NCBI GenBank assembly: GCA_951828385.1 | Contig: OX639973.1 | Span: 5,261,200-5,325,199, forward strand | DNA from: an uncultured Poribacteria bacterium | Lineage (GTDB): Bacteria; Poribacteria; WGA-4E; WGA-3G | DNA length: 64,000 bases | Reading direction: 5' to 3' | Part shown: in pieces, positions 4,505-48,007 of the stretch | Position numbering within the stretch: the first letter of the stretch is position 1 | Layout: each line of letters opens with the position of its first letter | The notes under the pieces: generated by a model | What the model was told of the DNA's origin: nothing | The model's database searches: none | Seen by the model: the letters and a program-made list of their open reading frames with translations, nothing else | Program-made: the position numbers and the translations under genes

Positions 4505-5662
4505 ATGGCGAAAAAACGAAAGCGAAAACAAAAACGCACGCGTCGGACGCATAAATATCAGATACGCGAACATCCGCAAAATATGCGACTCGGCAATATG
4601 CTTGACGACTTGGGCGACGTGCATAATCACTTCCTTGCTTTGGAAAAACGGTATTATCGCCGATATGGTTTGTATGCGGGACGGTATCGCTTGCAACCGC
4701 ATTTGACGAAGTTGTTGAAACGCACAAAGCACCATTGGGCGTGGATACCCCGCGACACACTTGATGAAGTGATTGTCCGTATCCATATCACTTATGAACG
4801 CTTTTTTGACGGTCTCGGGGGATTGCCGAAGTTCAAACGCAAAGACCGTTATCGTTCTGCTAAGTTCGAGTCTGCCTACAAACTCGAAGAAGGACGTGTC
4901 CGTATTTCGTTTAAGGCATGGGATGAATCCTCGCAAACCTTTAAATTCAACAAACGCTGGTTTTCTTTTCACCAGCACCGTGAATGGAAAGGACATGTCC
5001 GCTATATCCAAATCCTTCGGGATGCCGTTGGCACATTTTGGTTGTATGTCGTCAGTGATGATGCCTCGACCGACCCCTATTCTGCTACAGGTGAGAGCGT
5101 AGGAATAGATTTCGGTATGGATACCTACTTGACGCTGAACACCGGTGAAAAAATCGAACATCCGCAACCTTTGAAACAGTCCTTGACCGAACTTCGCAAG
5201 CTTAACAAAAGCCTTTCGCGTAAAGTCAAAGGCTCTAACAATTGGTGGCGTGCGGTCCGAGAACTCGCGAGACTGTATCGGCATATTGCCAACCAACGCA
5301 AAGATTGGCATTGGAAACTTGCTACTAACCTGTGTAAAAGGTTTGATACGATCGTCACCGAGACGCTGAACCTTGACGGTATGAAACGCCTGTGGGGACG
5401 TAAAGTCTCCGACCTTTCTTTCGGGCAGTTTGTTGAGATTCTGAAGTTCAAGTGTTTCAAACATAAGCGTGAGTTCCTACAAATCGGACAGTGGACACCG
5501 ACAACTAAACCGTGTTCCGATTGTGGATACCATAATAAGAACCTAACACTTGATGATAGGCAGTGGACATGTCCGGAATGTGGTTCACACCACGATCGAG
5601 ACATCAACGCTGCGATAAACATCTTGAGGGCTGCTTGTGGTCCCTCTGTGGAGCAGATGTAA
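4505..5662 (+). CDS. tnpB: TnpB RNA-guided nuclease (IS605 OrfB family)
   Basis: A 385-residue TnpB. The RuvC-like catalytic residues are all present: Asp202 (GIDFG), Glu286 (VTETLN) and Asp366 (HDRDINAA). A four-cysteine zinc finger (CSDCG and CPECG) lies between the last two. The N-terminus is strongly basic (KKRKRKQKR), as usual for nucleic-acid binding. Family members are guided by an RNA made from the element's right end and cut DNA beside a target-adjacent motif, keeping the element at its site. With the full triad this copy looks active. A 341-residue open frame on the opposite strand is only its shadow. No upstream Shine-Dalgarno site is obvious. Confidence 0.92.
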   Translation: MAKKRKRKQKRTRRTHKYQIREHPQNMRLGNMLDDLGDVHNHFLALEKRYYRRYGLYAGRYRLQPHLTKLLKRTKHHWAWIPRDTLDEVIVRIHITYERFFDGLGGLPKFKRKDRYRSAKFESAYKLEEGRVRISFKAWDESSQTFKFNKRWFSFHQHREWKGHVRYIQILRDAVGTFWLYVVSDDASTDPYSATGESVGIDFGMDTYLTLNTGEKIEHPQPLKQSLTELRKLNKSLSRKVKGSNNWWRAVRELARLYRHIANQRKDWHWKLATNLCKRFDTIVTETLNLDGMKRLWGRKVSDLSFGQFVEILKFKCFKHKREFLQIGQWTPTTKPCSDCGYHNKNLTLDDRQWTCPECGSHHDRDINAAINILRAACGPSVEQM

Positions 5663-15412: not shown

Positions 15413-15544
15413 ATGCGGCGACACTCCATATACGTTGATCCTGCAATTGCGTCCGAAAATTTCATACCTGAATCGGGACTTCTATATTTAATCTAACAGG
15501 ATACTGCTGTGCGCTGTTCCACCGCTTTCCCGCGAAAGCAGATG

Positions 15545-15757
15545 CGTGAAACACGATCCAGGCAGGTCTCCTGACTTCCGATCTTTTGGTGTAGTTTCCA
15601 AGCCAAAACTTGTCCTACACATCCCGCTGGACCTTCCCATCAATAAATTGACAGTGGTTTTTTCAACGGATACTTACGATCGTTCACAGTGGCGGGGCCG
15701 TGGCGGTTTTTCACCGCGCTTCCCTATTCTCCGTAATTCGGCACCTGAACCGTTAAT
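15545..15757 (-). ncRNA. Cobalamin riboswitch
   Basis: The minus strand shows the conserved aptamer parts in order: an ACGGTTCAGGTGCC start (about 15757), GGGAAGCGCGGTGAAAAACC followed by the CCGCCACGG and CCCCGCCACTGTGA blocks, GATGGGAAGG, and the B12 box AGTCAGGAGACCTGCC (about 15574-15559). Spacing and order fit the Cobalamin family. The next gene is the propeller-dockerin protein at 15357, about 190 bases on, with a terminator between. Confidence 0.95.
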
Positions 15758-15778
15758 GTATTCAAATGTAATGCATAT

Positions 15779-31354: not shown

Positions 31355-32791
31355 TTAGTATGCACGAGCAAAGACTGCAATGTCTTCCGCAGATTTCCCG
31401 CAGACAATACACGCACCATCACCCTCCGGTTGTTCCATCGGGATACATCGGATAGTCGCTTGTGTTTCTTCACTGACCTGATCTTCACATGCTGCGTCTC
31501 CGCACCAGCGTGCGCGCGCGAACCCGTCCTCAATGACTTCTTTGAAGACATCGTAGGTATCCGGTTCAAAAGTATTCGCATCCCGAAATTCTGTTGCCCG
31601 TTTCAGCATATCCGCTTGAATCGTCTCAAGCATCTGTGTTACCGTCTCCGCAACGTTATCTATCGGTACAAACGTTTTACCTTCTTTGCCCGGTATATCG
31701 CGCCGTGCAAGAACGACCTGCTGGTTGCTCAGATCCCGGGGACCGATCTCAATACGCAATGGAACGCCTTTGAGTTCCCATTCGTTAAACCGCCAACCGG
31801 GTGAATAGTCGAACCTATCGTCAACGTGATAGCGGACACCGTCCAAGGTCTCACAAATGCCGTCAACGGCTTGCATGACCGCCTGCTTATCATCCTCTCT
31901 ATTCTTCGGAACGATGGGCACAATGACGAGTTGCGTAGGTGCCAACCTCGGCGGTAGGACCAACCCTTGATCATCGCCATGCGTCATGATAATCGCGCCG
32001 ATCATCCGCGTGCTGACCCCCCAACTCGTTGTCCAACAATGCTGTTGTTTCTGATTCGCATCGAGATATTGAATCTCAAACGCTTTGGCGAAGTTTTGCC
32101 CGAGGTCGTGTGATGTACCCGCTTGGAGGGCACGTTTATCGCCCATCATTGCCTCAATGGTATAAGAGGTCAGCGCACCGGGGAACTTTTCGCTTTCGCT
32201 CTTGCGTCCAGGGATAACAGGTATCGCGGCTTCATTGACCGCAAAATCGGTATACAGATCCAGAATACAGAGGGTCTCCTCTTCCGCTTCCGCGTGTGTA
32301 GCGTGAGCCGTATGCCCTTCCTGCCAGTAGAATTCCATCGTTCTGAGGAAAAGACGCGTACGCGGCTCCCAGCGCACAACGTTTGCCCACTGATTGATAA
32401 GCACGGGTAGGTCGCGATAAGACTGGATCCACTGGCTATACATATACCCGATAATGGTTTCAGATGTCGGACGCACCACGAGCGGCTCCTCCAACTTTTT
32501 CCCACCACCGTGTGTGACAACAGCGAGTTCCGGTTTGAAGCCCTCGACGTGTTCCGCCTCTTTCTCAATAAAGCTCATCGGAATAAAGAGCGGAAAAGCA
32601 GCGTTTTGGTGTCCTGTCGCCTTGAAACGGATATCCAACTGTTCCTTGACGTTCTCCCAGAGTGCATAACCGTAGGGACGCACCACCATGCAGCCCCGCA
32701 CGGGCGCATAGTCTGCCATCTCCGCTTGACGGATGACCTGGGTATACCATTTTGCGTAGTCTTCACTACGGGGAACTATTTTATCAAACAT
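31355..32791 (-). CDS. proS: Prolyl-tRNA synthetase, archaeal/eukaryotic type
   Basis: A 478-residue class II synthetase that charges tRNA-Pro. The N-terminus (SEDYAKWYTQVIRQAEMADYAPVRG, shown in parts) and short length without the bacterial editing insertion mark the type 3 form, as in archaea, eukaryotes and some bacteria. Motif 2 (RTRLFLRTMEFYWQEGHTAH) and motif 3 (GASWG-like TTSWGVSTRMIGAIIMTHGDD) are clear, and the C-terminal zinc-type domain with late Cys residues ends in a Tyr. The start ATG 32791 has no strong ribosome site. Confidence 0.93.
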   Translation of the reverse strand: MFDKIVPRSEDYAKWYTQVIRQAEMADYAPVRGCMVVRPYGYALWENVKEQLDIRFKATGHQNAAFPLFIPMSFIEKEAEHVEGFKPELAVVTHGGGKKLEEPLVVRPTSETIIGYMYSQWIQSYRDLPVLINQWANVVRWEPRTRLFLRTMEFYWQEGHTAHATHAEAEEETLCILDLYTDFAVNEAAIPVIPGRKSESEKFPGALTSYTIEAMMGDKRALQAGTSHDLGQNFAKAFEIQYLDANQKQQHCWTTSWGVSTRMIGAIIMTHGDDQGLVLPPRLAPTQLVIVPIVPKNREDDKQAVMQAVDGICETLDGVRYHVDDRFDYSPGWRFNEWELKGVPLRIEIGPRDLSNQQVVLARRDIPGKEGKTFVPIDNVAETVTQMLETIQADMLKRATEFRDANTFEPDTYDVFKEVIEDGFARARWCGDAACEDQVSEETQATIRCIPMEQPEGDGACIVCGKSAEDIAVFARAY

Positions 32792-32949
32792 ATTTTTAAT
32801 TATTTAATCTGCTCACCGTTCCACTTCGTTTCACGGTGGTTTTCGGTTAATTCTAACTACCTTTGGATTACGGGTATTCGGTCGTAAAGCCCAATGCTTT
32901 AGCTTTGGGATATAAGACCGCAAACACCTTAATTCCCCCAAGAAAGATT

Positions 32950-32978
32950 TGACATTCACCTAAAAATGTAGTACAATT
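32950..32978 (+). promoter_or_regulatory. Near-consensus sigma-70 promoter of an orphan RNA
   Basis: TTGACA at 32950-32955, exactly 17 bases, then TACAAT at 32973-32978. The transcript would start about 32985, just before the left-end hairpin, and run through the structured element. Confidence 0.75.
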
Positions 32979-32984
32979 AATATC

Positions 32985-33360
32985 AGCACTTGGTTAGGAT
33001 TTTCACCTCTCTCTATCTTTGAGAGAGTCCTAACCGACCTCGTGAAAAGGGTCTTAAGTGCGAAGTGCGACACCACTGAAAACATGTATCGGGCAGCTCA
33101 GGCGTAATTGAGCGAAAGCTTGGATCGGAGCAGAGGTGAAAGTCTGCACGTTGTATTGCTGCCCACTTTTCAACTTTTCTATCCATTTTGGATAGAGGTA
33201 GGCGGGGATAGCCAAGAATGTTTGCCTTGATATGCCTATCGGGATTTTTCACCTGATAGGGAATCGCCTACTGGTGGAGCGAAAATAAGACGGTCTACTC
33301 TCAGAGAAAACCGCAGTCGCTACGAAGCCGAAGCCCCTACCTTTAGGTAGTGGGTGCTAT
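32985..33360 (+). ncRNA. Structured non-autonomous IS200/IS605 element (omega-RNA-like)
   Basis: This part of the 586-base gap between proS and pgk has no gene but many paired arms: GGTTAGGA/TCCTAACC (32993/33028), GGGCAGC/GCTGCCC (33091/33158) enclosing two hairpins with 8-base loops (GCTCA/TGAGC, GCAGA/TCTGC), TCTATCC/GGATAGA (33178/33190), and GTAGGCG/CGCCTAC (33198/33265) enclosing CCTATC/GATAGG. The 3' end (33275-33357), including TAAGACG, GCTACGAAGC and the CCCCTACC-TTTA-GGTAGTGGG hairpin, matches the right end of the TnpB element at 5.65-5.73 kb. It is therefore a derivative lacking tnpB, with its own promoter. It may supply a guide RNA in trans. Confidence 0.75.
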
Positions 33361-33377
33361 CACTGACTTTAGAACAC

Positions 33378-34577
33378 TCACTCACTTACTGAATCCGTTA
33401 AAGCGACGATACCGGGGAGTGGCTTGCCTTCTAAAAACTCTAAGGAGGCACCGCCTCCCGTTGAAATATGCGTCATCCGATCTGCGACACCGGCTTGTTG
33501 TATCGCTGCGACACAATCACCGCCACCGATAATGCTCACCGATTCCGAATCTGCAATCTGTTTTGCCACTGCAATTGTGCCTTGTGCAAACTGCTCGAAT
33601 TCGTAGACACCTAAGGGACCGTTCCATACCACTGTTTGCGCCGTTCCGATCTGTTCACCAAACACTGATACAGTTTCGGGACCGATGTCTAATCCCTGCC
33701 ATCCGTCCGGAATATACCCTTTACCAACGACCTGAGCCTCCGTTTCGGGAGCAAAGTCTCGTCCGACAACGTGGTCTACGGGTAGTAAAACTGTCTCTGA
33801 GAAGTCTGGCCTTTCAACCAATGATTTTGCAACGTCAAGTTTCTCGGCTTCGAGAAGCGAATCCCCGATATTTAACCCCATCGCTGACAGAAAAGTGTAT
33901 GCCATACCGCCACCGATGAGCAGCTTATCCACCTGTTCAAGGAGCGTTTCAATGAGTGTAATTTTGTCAGATATCTTCGCACCGCCGAGAATAGCGACAT
34001 AAGGACGCACAGGGGGTTCGAGGCTTGTACTGAGATAATAAATTTCGCGTGCCATCAAGAAGCCCGCGACACACGGATTGAGATAATGCGTTACGCCCTC
34101 AGTTGAAGCGTGTGCACGGTGTGCGGTGCCGAAGGCATCGTTGACATAGACATCTGCAAGCGAAGCGAGTTGTTGAGCAAATGCTGCGTCGTTTTCGGTC
34201 TCTTCAGCATAGAAGCGAACATTCTCAAGGAGCAGCACCTCACCATTACGTAAAGACGCAACGGCACTTTGCACGGATTCACCAACACAATCGTTGACGT
34301 GTGCGACGCGCGTGCCAAGTTTTCGACTCAAAGCCACAGCGATCGGTTCGGTAGAAAGCGTTTCCCTGTCGGCTGCCGAACCCACTTCCGGTCTGCCTAA
34401 GTGTGTCACCAAAATGATTCTGGCATCTGCGTTGATGAGTGCAAGGAGCGTCGGCAAAGCAGCAGTAATACGCGTTTCGTCTGTAATCTTCCCAGCTACC
34501 ATCGGAACATTGAAGTCCACCCGTACGAGAACGCGTTTTCCGGTAACGTCTATGTCCTTTAATTCAAGTTTATCCAT
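33378..34577 (-). CDS. pgk: Phosphoglycerate kinase
   Basis: A 399-residue PGK, which transfers a phosphate between 1,3-bisphosphoglycerate and ADP in glycolysis. Motifs are in place: RVLVRVDFNVP, VTHLGRP, LLENVRFY, DAFGTAHRAHAST, AILGGAKISDK, the GGGMAYTFL stretch and the late SIIGGGDCVAA and STGGGASLEFLEG nucleotide loops. The length is normal for a bacterial enzyme. A dispersed AGTTATCAGTT repeat follows its start codon region upstream (34580-34640). Confidence 0.97.
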   Translation of the reverse strand: MDKLELKDIDVTGKRVLVRVDFNVPMVAGKITDETRITAALPTLLALINADARIILVTHLGRPEVGSAADRETLSTEPIAVALSRKLGTRVAHVNDCVGESVQSAVASLRNGEVLLLENVRFYAEETENDAAFAQQLASLADVYVNDAFGTAHRAHASTEGVTHYLNPCVAGFLMAREIYYLSTSLEPPVRPYVAILGGAKISDKITLIETLLEQVDKLLIGGGMAYTFLSAMGLNIGDSLLEAEKLDVAKSLVERPDFSETVLLPVDHVVGRDFAPETEAQVVGKGYIPDGWQGLDIGPETVSVFGEQIGTAQTVVWNGPLGVYEFEQFAQGTIAVAKQIADSESVSIIGGGDCVAAIQQAGVADRMTHISTGGGASLEFLEGKPLPGIVALTDSVSE

Positions 34578-47933: not shown

Positions 47934-48007
47934 TCGGGGCGACTGGATTCGAACCAGCGACCTCTTGAACCCCATTCAAGCGCGCTTCCGGGCTGCGCCA
48001 CGCCCCG
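47934..48007 (-). tRNA. tRNA-Pro (GGG)
   Basis: The minus strand folds to a full cloverleaf: acceptor CGGGGCG/CGCCCCG, D stem GCGC/GCGC, anticodon stem CTTGA/TCAAG with loop ATGGGGT (anticodon GGG), and T arm GCTGG-TTCGAAT-CCAGT. No CCA is encoded. It is 81 bases upstream of the hom start. Confidence 0.95.

Follow-up and report, generated by a model that had tools for sequence, protein, structure and literature searches.

A gene-free IS200/IS605-type element of a Poribacteria genome with a conserved RNA structure and a TnpB-type guide scaffold

In this work we describe a complete, gene-free IS200/IS605-type element of 492 bp, on the plus strand at positions 32872–33363 of the window (the whole stretch of 64,000 nucleotides that was analysed), in a Poribacteria-like genome of 6.66 Mb (G000), the Poribacteria concerned being associated with sponges. 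The nuclease gene is lost and a guide-like RNA is kept, so this orphan element probably survives by borrowing the transposase and the RNA-guided nuclease of full-length relatives. We consider it rather likely that it is a non-autonomous, guide-RNA-only IS200/IS605 element, the RNA being its sole product, which uses TnpA and TnpB in trans. This model is built on the mobility of the element, its ends and target motif, the match with empty sites, the promoter sequence, selection at the RNA level, scaffold homology, and the finding of TnpA in the genome and TnpB in every carrier genome; from these observations we infer expression, TnpB binding and cutting in trans, and a role for the leader and middle domain of the RNA.

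Results

The element, its ends and its promoter

The following features define the element as DNA.

32868–32871, plus strand: TTAC target motif (TAM), outside the element on its left side; the left boundary, read from the flanks, is TTAC or TTAT in 37 of the 37 copies with a parseable left end
32872–33363, plus strand: whole non-autonomous IS200/IS605-type element, 492 bp; its ends follow from a relative's near-identical copies, whose flanks are unrelated, and the right end also from empty sites in six relatives
32890–32909, plus strand: left-end hairpin CCCAATGC-TTTA-GCTTTGGG, common to tnpB elements
32949–32977, plus strand: sigma-70-like promoter TTGACA-N17-TACAAT, recognised by its sequence and kept in copies and in tnpB elements

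The element lies between proS (minus strand, start at 32791) and pgk (minus strand, stop at 33378). The initial annotation placed its start at 32950; the real start is 32872, directly after the TTAC motif. The promoter described there as near-perfect is present, with TTGACA (32949–32954) and TACAAT (32972–32977) separated by a 17-bp spacer, and 41 of 52 copies have a loose form of the promoter pattern upstream. Between promoter and right end about 379 nt would be transcribed. That no nuclease gene is present also holds: among the listed ORFs of at least 60 amino acids, the only one inside 32980–33363 is antisense (79 amino acids). A tnpB gene in cis, which is usual for TnpB reRNA elements although not strictly required, is thus absent. 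The left end is 97.7% identical over 87 bp to that of a tnpB element (L012).

Copies and mobility

Copies align end to end over about 480–500 bp, with no space for tnpB. The genome contains seven more full-length copies, 77–89% identical to the whole element, and 10–11 copies when shorter and divergent ones are counted; sister species hold about 50 further copies. When 85 genomes of the phylum were searched at the DNA level, 25 had interior matches, nearly all of them in the same genus, and a covariance model of the middle domain (R1) gave 54 matches in 21 of the 85. All relatives detected with a DNA pattern belong to Candidatus Poribacteria, and the middle-domain pattern occurs only in Poribacteria among genome contigs and in none of the viral contigs, exact-pattern scans being of a kind that overlooks diverged relatives.

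In one relative (G082) five copies, 99.2–100% identical, are found in five unrelated flanks. Each reads TTAC followed by GGGA (AGGA in one copy) at the left boundary and ends in GCTATCAC at the right boundary, i.e. TTAC–element–TATCAC. Because copies of 99–100% identity with precise ends sit in unrelated flanks, they show recent transposition. The fixed short target motif, the lack of target duplication and the subterminal end hairpins are those of non-autonomous IS200/IS605 elements.

Six relatives (L111, L115, L117, L118, L129 and L130) carry the site without the element. In these empty sites the right-flank sequence TGACTTTAGAACACTC, beginning TGA(C/T)TTTAG, is preceded by TTTAC (GTTAC in L117), and one base differs in L130. 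The left junction of the window copy is at GGATTAC, and about 30–130 bp or more of the relatives' sequence is absent on that side, which points to a small deletion at the time of insertion or after it. Judged by this loss of left flank relative to the empty sites, the window copy is not a perfectly simple insertion.

Selection on the RNA structure

The RNA of the element folds at -134.6 kcal/mol (z = -4.3), and none of 100 shuffles is equally stable. Covariation, which the initial annotation had proposed as a check, was counted on an alignment of 37 homologous copies (A2). RNAalifold gave 79 pairs on these copies, 41 of them with compensatory changes; the covariation test itself used a hand-written structure of 82 pairs, pseudoknot included. 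In this structure 98.0% of the pair cells are standard, and double-sided changes affect 42 of the 82 pairs and 421 cells, against a mean of 125 cells after shuffling, a number that none of 500 shuffles raised to the observed one. Sliding the partners by 1–3 columns lowers pairing to 36–50% of cells, and some one-sided changes preserve G-U pairs. The structure of the orphan RNA is therefore under selection. The at least seven stems noticed earlier become at least 13 helices, including a pseudoknot that had been missed. One helix proposed by RNAalifold, CCACT(94–98)/GGTGG(340–344), was rejected: none of its changes is double-sided, and several copies that retain GGTGG have lost CCACT.

These observations bear on the idea of a passive IS200/IS605 MITE, in which only the DNA end hairpins count and RNA structure is incidental. 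The ends, the target motif and the absence of genes all fit such an element, but one would not expect from it compensatory changes in 42 pairs, most of them deep inside the element and some in the pseudoknot, one-sided changes that keep G-U pairs, or a conserved promoter. This reading is already disfavoured, and we regard it as quite improbable.

The 3' scaffold and the predicted guide

The following features belong to the 3' part of the element and its right flank; the tnpB gene of the window is listed with them.

33198–33363, plus strand: reRNA scaffold, with helix P8 (33198–33205/33264–33271), helix P9 and the right-end hairpin; from about 33202 onward it is homologous to the 3' ends of tnpB
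33334–33354, plus strand: right-end hairpin CCCCTACC-TTTA-GGTAGTGGG, helix 14, with covariation; common to tnpB elements
33364–33379, plus strand: predicted 16-nt guide TGACTTTAGAACACTC, in flanking DNA outside the element; preceded by a TAM in the empty sites of six relatives
4505–5662, plus strand: tnpB gene, 385 amino acids, MAKKRKRKQK subfamily, which differs from the subfamily of the orphan's nearest scaffold

The last 162 nt of the element are homologous to the TnpB reRNA scaffold and overlap what are the last codons of the tnpB gene. The initial annotation was thus correct in seeing the hairpin of a TnpB element at the right end, and the likeness to tnpB extends further than it had claimed. 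With nhmmer the scaffold matches the 3' ends of seven tnpB loci (E 1.9e-11 to 8.5e-3), and its last about 106 nt are 88–90% identical to two tnpB elements (L164 and L159). The tnpB element of the window has only about 52 nt of right end in common with the orphan element, which has closer relatives elsewhere in the genome. Two orphan copies keep a related leader and have a different right end: their scaffolds match subfamily-2 tnpB ends at 95% (L011) and 91% (L108) identity; the other orphan copies compared have a subfamily 1 scaffold. Two TnpB scaffold types are therefore found joined to the leader module, whose accompanying middle domain has diverged. This apparently modular pairing, read from sequence comparison, argues for the guide-RNA-only model. 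Among tnpB right ends, four (L161, L166, L170 and L171) carry an inverted repeat of ~60–130 bp in a loop of the reRNA scaffold, where it is apparently tolerated.

The guide is predicted to start at 33364 and not at about 33361 as first proposed. As in TnpB reRNAs, it lies beside the right end, and the same sequence follows the TAM in the empty site. In the genome TGACTTTAGAACACTC has an exact match only at its own site, and off-target regulation by the guide was dropped as a candidate because no second exact match exists. Matches with at most two mismatches are near the control level (7 versus 3). It is on general grounds conceivable that nuclease-free orphan guides turn to regulation, the RNA then being a guide adopted by the host to bring a TnpB-like protein to other sites of the genome; the restriction of exact matches to the element's own flank, the near-control number of looser matches, and flanks that differ between recently mobile copies make this very unlikely.

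The 5' leader

Upstream of the scaffold the RNA begins with a leader domain, composed as follows.

32986–33068, plus strand: 5' leader domain, with covariation in P2 and P3 and with strands A, A' and A''; same topology in 15 of 15 parsed tnpB leaders
32986–32991, plus strand: strand A, with tandem partners A' (33056–33061) and A'' (33063–33068)
32991–32998/33029–33036, plus strand: helix P2, covariation
33007–33013/33021–33027, plus strand: helix P3, covariation
33000–33006, plus strand: TTTTCAC, forming a pseudoknot with GTGAAAA (33042–33048); paired in 37 of 37 copies, with double-sided changes in 4 of 7 pairs
33063–33077, plus strand: small hairpin P5, A'' with strand 33074–33077, an alternative to A–A''

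In divergent copies strand A, its partners and the P5 strand change together, and for P5 the coordinated changes are GATAG/CTATC, GCAAG/CTTGC, CAAG/CTTG, ACAAG/CTTGT and AGGTG/CACCT. Since the pairings of the A strands exclude one another, the A, A', A'' and P5 pairings suggest a possible switch.

The same fold precedes tnpB genes. Among the tnpB loci of this genome (L154–L181), belonging to several TnpB subfamilies, all 15 mRNA leaders that were parsed have, about 130 nt upstream of the start codon, the pseudoknotted topology of the orphan leader (P2 and a pseudoknot of ~7 bp), with different sequences and the pairing kept. They resemble the orphan leader in the arrangement of P1, P2, P3 and pseudoknot and in the tandem A'/A'', which in most of them ends a few bases before the start codon. 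They differ in what comes next, the start codon in tnpB leaders and the middle domain in the orphan element. A covariance model of the orphan leader, combining sequence and structure, did not detect the tnpB leaders, so that the likeness rests on identical topology and on the parsing of each leader. From topology and position, common descent of the two kinds of leader is likely, although not proven. The tnpB leader fold has no match in Rfam, and it possibly serves translational control of tnpB. A palindromic insert of ~35 nt (CCGCCCCTTCCnAGTAACGGGnGGGG-like) recurs in loops of RNA structures, at L157, L160, L161, L178 and L181 in the P3 loop of the leader, at L166 in the left end, and at L010.

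The leader gives reason to consider that the RNA acts as a decoy or regulator, binding TnpB or another reader of tnpB leaders and titrating TnpB or tuning its translation rather than guiding cleavage. A tnpB-type leader fold is kept with nothing to translate, the tandem A'/A'' give mutually exclusive pairings, and a region of a TnpB mRNA was reported to inhibit cleavage (PMC10278001). A decoy would, however, need neither scaffold nor right end nor a correct geometry of guide and TAM, all of which are kept, and we consider it unlikely that this is what the RNA does.

The middle domain and tests against known RNA families

Between leader and scaffold lies a domain that sets the orphan element apart.

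33070–33198, plus strand: middle domain M, with helices P6 and P7; found in orphan elements only, covariation
33091–33097/33158–33164, plus strand: helix P6, with inner hairpins, covariation
33177–33184/33190–33197, plus strand: helix P7, covariation

This domain of about 130 nt has no match in tnpB loci when both strands are searched, and its covariance model matched only orphan elements in this genome. A plain tnpB deletion was rejected, as the middle domain is unmatched in tnpB loci even though leader and scaffold resemble tnpB elements. The earlier proposal that the 5' two thirds are not deleted tnpB and form a fold of their own stands for the middle domain; the leader has the fold of tnpB mRNA leaders. 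A likeness of the middle domain to RNase P or group II RNA was a by-eye resemblance only and was dropped.

No Rfam family matches the element at the gathering level, and up to E = 10 the interval 32600–33700 gave three chance-level matches to unrelated families. In the same search group I (RF00028), group II and self-cleaving ribozymes gave no match. This weighs against a self-splicing or self-cleaving element, IStron-like or of a ribozyme class yet to be named, a reading suggested by the large conserved fold, pseudoknot included, that this IS605-type element contains, and one which we hold to be very improbable. HEARO (RF02033) likewise has no match up to E = 10 on 32600–33700. Beside RRXRR (IscB-like) genes elsewhere in this genome, the model does score, if weakly (38.5, 29.9 and 28.3 bits; E 6e-5 to 0.017). 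Eight such IscB/IsrB-like genes are present (G000:C1, at 6210449, 717478, 4960222, 3518891, 6061381, 2115338, 4547330 and 854335), and sub-threshold HEARO matches adjoin three of the five checked, which makes the negative result at the orphan element informative. The immediate neighbours, proS and pgk, are not iscB or isrB. The initial annotation had combined an IscB/IsrB-type (HEARO) RNA with a TnpB-type end; although RRXRR genes occur in the genome, the lack of a match despite this positive control, a middle-domain model that in this genome finds only orphan elements and a 5' part with the tnpB leader fold led us to reject a HEARO/IscB origin, and the fusion is extremely unlikely.

TnpA and TnpB in the genome, and other features of the window

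The genome contains 12 matches to the Y1 transposase (PF01797) and 54 TnpB C-terminal domains over the cut-off. A TnpB relative at E <= 1e-50 is found in 25 of 25 carrier genomes against 59 of 85 overall, a co-occurrence that is confounded by kinship and that, TnpB being common in the genus, is weak evidence.

Two further features of the window score above the Rfam gathering level.

15544–15763, minus strand: cobalamin riboswitch
47934–48007, minus strand: tRNA

Close copies, at unrelated positions inside and outside mobile elements, repeatedly alternate between NGCC and GGTTTCC (L004/L006, L074, L089, L156, L164 and L120 versus L005, L073, L009, L154, L166 and L115). This alternation is either the trace of a mutational mechanism or an assembly artefact; the GGTTTCC 7-mer is only mildly enriched in the window.

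Discussion

In TnpB systems the reRNA derives from the right end and carries a guide of about 16 nt taken from the flank; it was proposed to lead TnpB to the donor joint after excision, where repair restores the element (PMC8612924). Long precursors are trimmed on their 5' side by TnpB, and after processing the guide RNAs are 79 to 466 nt long (PMC10278001). The anatomy of the orphan element fits this scheme with the nuclease supplied in trans. In the mechanism that we propose, TnpA of full-length relatives would move the element as single-stranded DNA, through its end hairpins, into TTAC or TTAT sites. The element's own promoter would then give an RNA of roughly 380 nt running past the right end into the flank; its 3' part would fold as a TnpB reRNA scaffold, and the adjoining 16 nt or so of flank would serve as guide. 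A TnpB encoded at another locus of the genome would take up, and perhaps trim, this RNA, and the complex would cut the empty site (TTTAC followed by the guide sequence), repair of which from a sister copy would restore the element. As for the leader and middle domain, they presumably keep the untranslated RNA stable or aid its loading. Known reRNAs need no structured leader or middle domain, so that guide function alone leaves the conservation of these parts unexplained; they may protect the RNA, improve its loading, or compete with tnpB mRNAs for a shared factor.

A bolder version of the guide-RNA-only model, which we put forward tentatively and judge possible, is that the lineage swapped its nuclease gene for a new RNA domain, giving a self-promoted, guide-RNA-only selfish element that parasitises TnpA as well as TnpB and has paired with two TnpB scaffold types; its leader and middle domain would together be a structured RNA of a new class, able to remodel or recruit the nuclease.

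If the model is true, the RNA-guided nucleases of transposons are a shared resource exploited even by gene-free elements, and the orphan element illustrates a step on the way to CRISPR-Cas12, whose guide RNAs are encoded in trans. It also allows one to ask, in a natural setting, whether TnpB-guided homing benefits an element that has no TnpB of its own. Two of its folds, the pseudoknotted leader and the middle domain, covary strongly, are absent from Rfam and lend themselves to direct biochemistry.

In the literature searched, which comprised papers available without subscription, we found nothing direct on tnpB-less guide-RNA elements or structured tnpB leaders, and no promoter-driven TnpB-type guide RNA with a conserved extra domain in a gene-free element. 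Two related phenomena are already known, non-autonomous IS200/IS605 elements and trans-acting omega-RNA loci for IscB. Like the reRNA (omega-RNA) of the ISDra2 type, the orphan RNA has a 3' scaffold continuous with the right-end hairpin and a guide in the adjacent flank, with a TAM on the left and an empty site made of TAM and guide; unlike it, the orphan element has no tnpB in cis, has its own promoter right before an untranslated leader, and contains an extra structured domain of 130 nt. It shares with IS200/IS605-derived MITEs and REP/REPIN-type elements a short, gene-free form, presumably mobilised via end hairpins by a Y1 transposase in trans, and differs from them in its interior, which combines a promoter, an RNA under strong structural selection and a nuclease guide scaffold. 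For IscB, orphan trans-acting omega-RNA loci have been reported in Ktedonobacter, where guide-RNA loci outnumber or stand apart from the nuclease gene; those loci are of the HEARO type, with the guide at the 5' end, whereas the element described here is of the TnpB type, with the guide at the 3' end.
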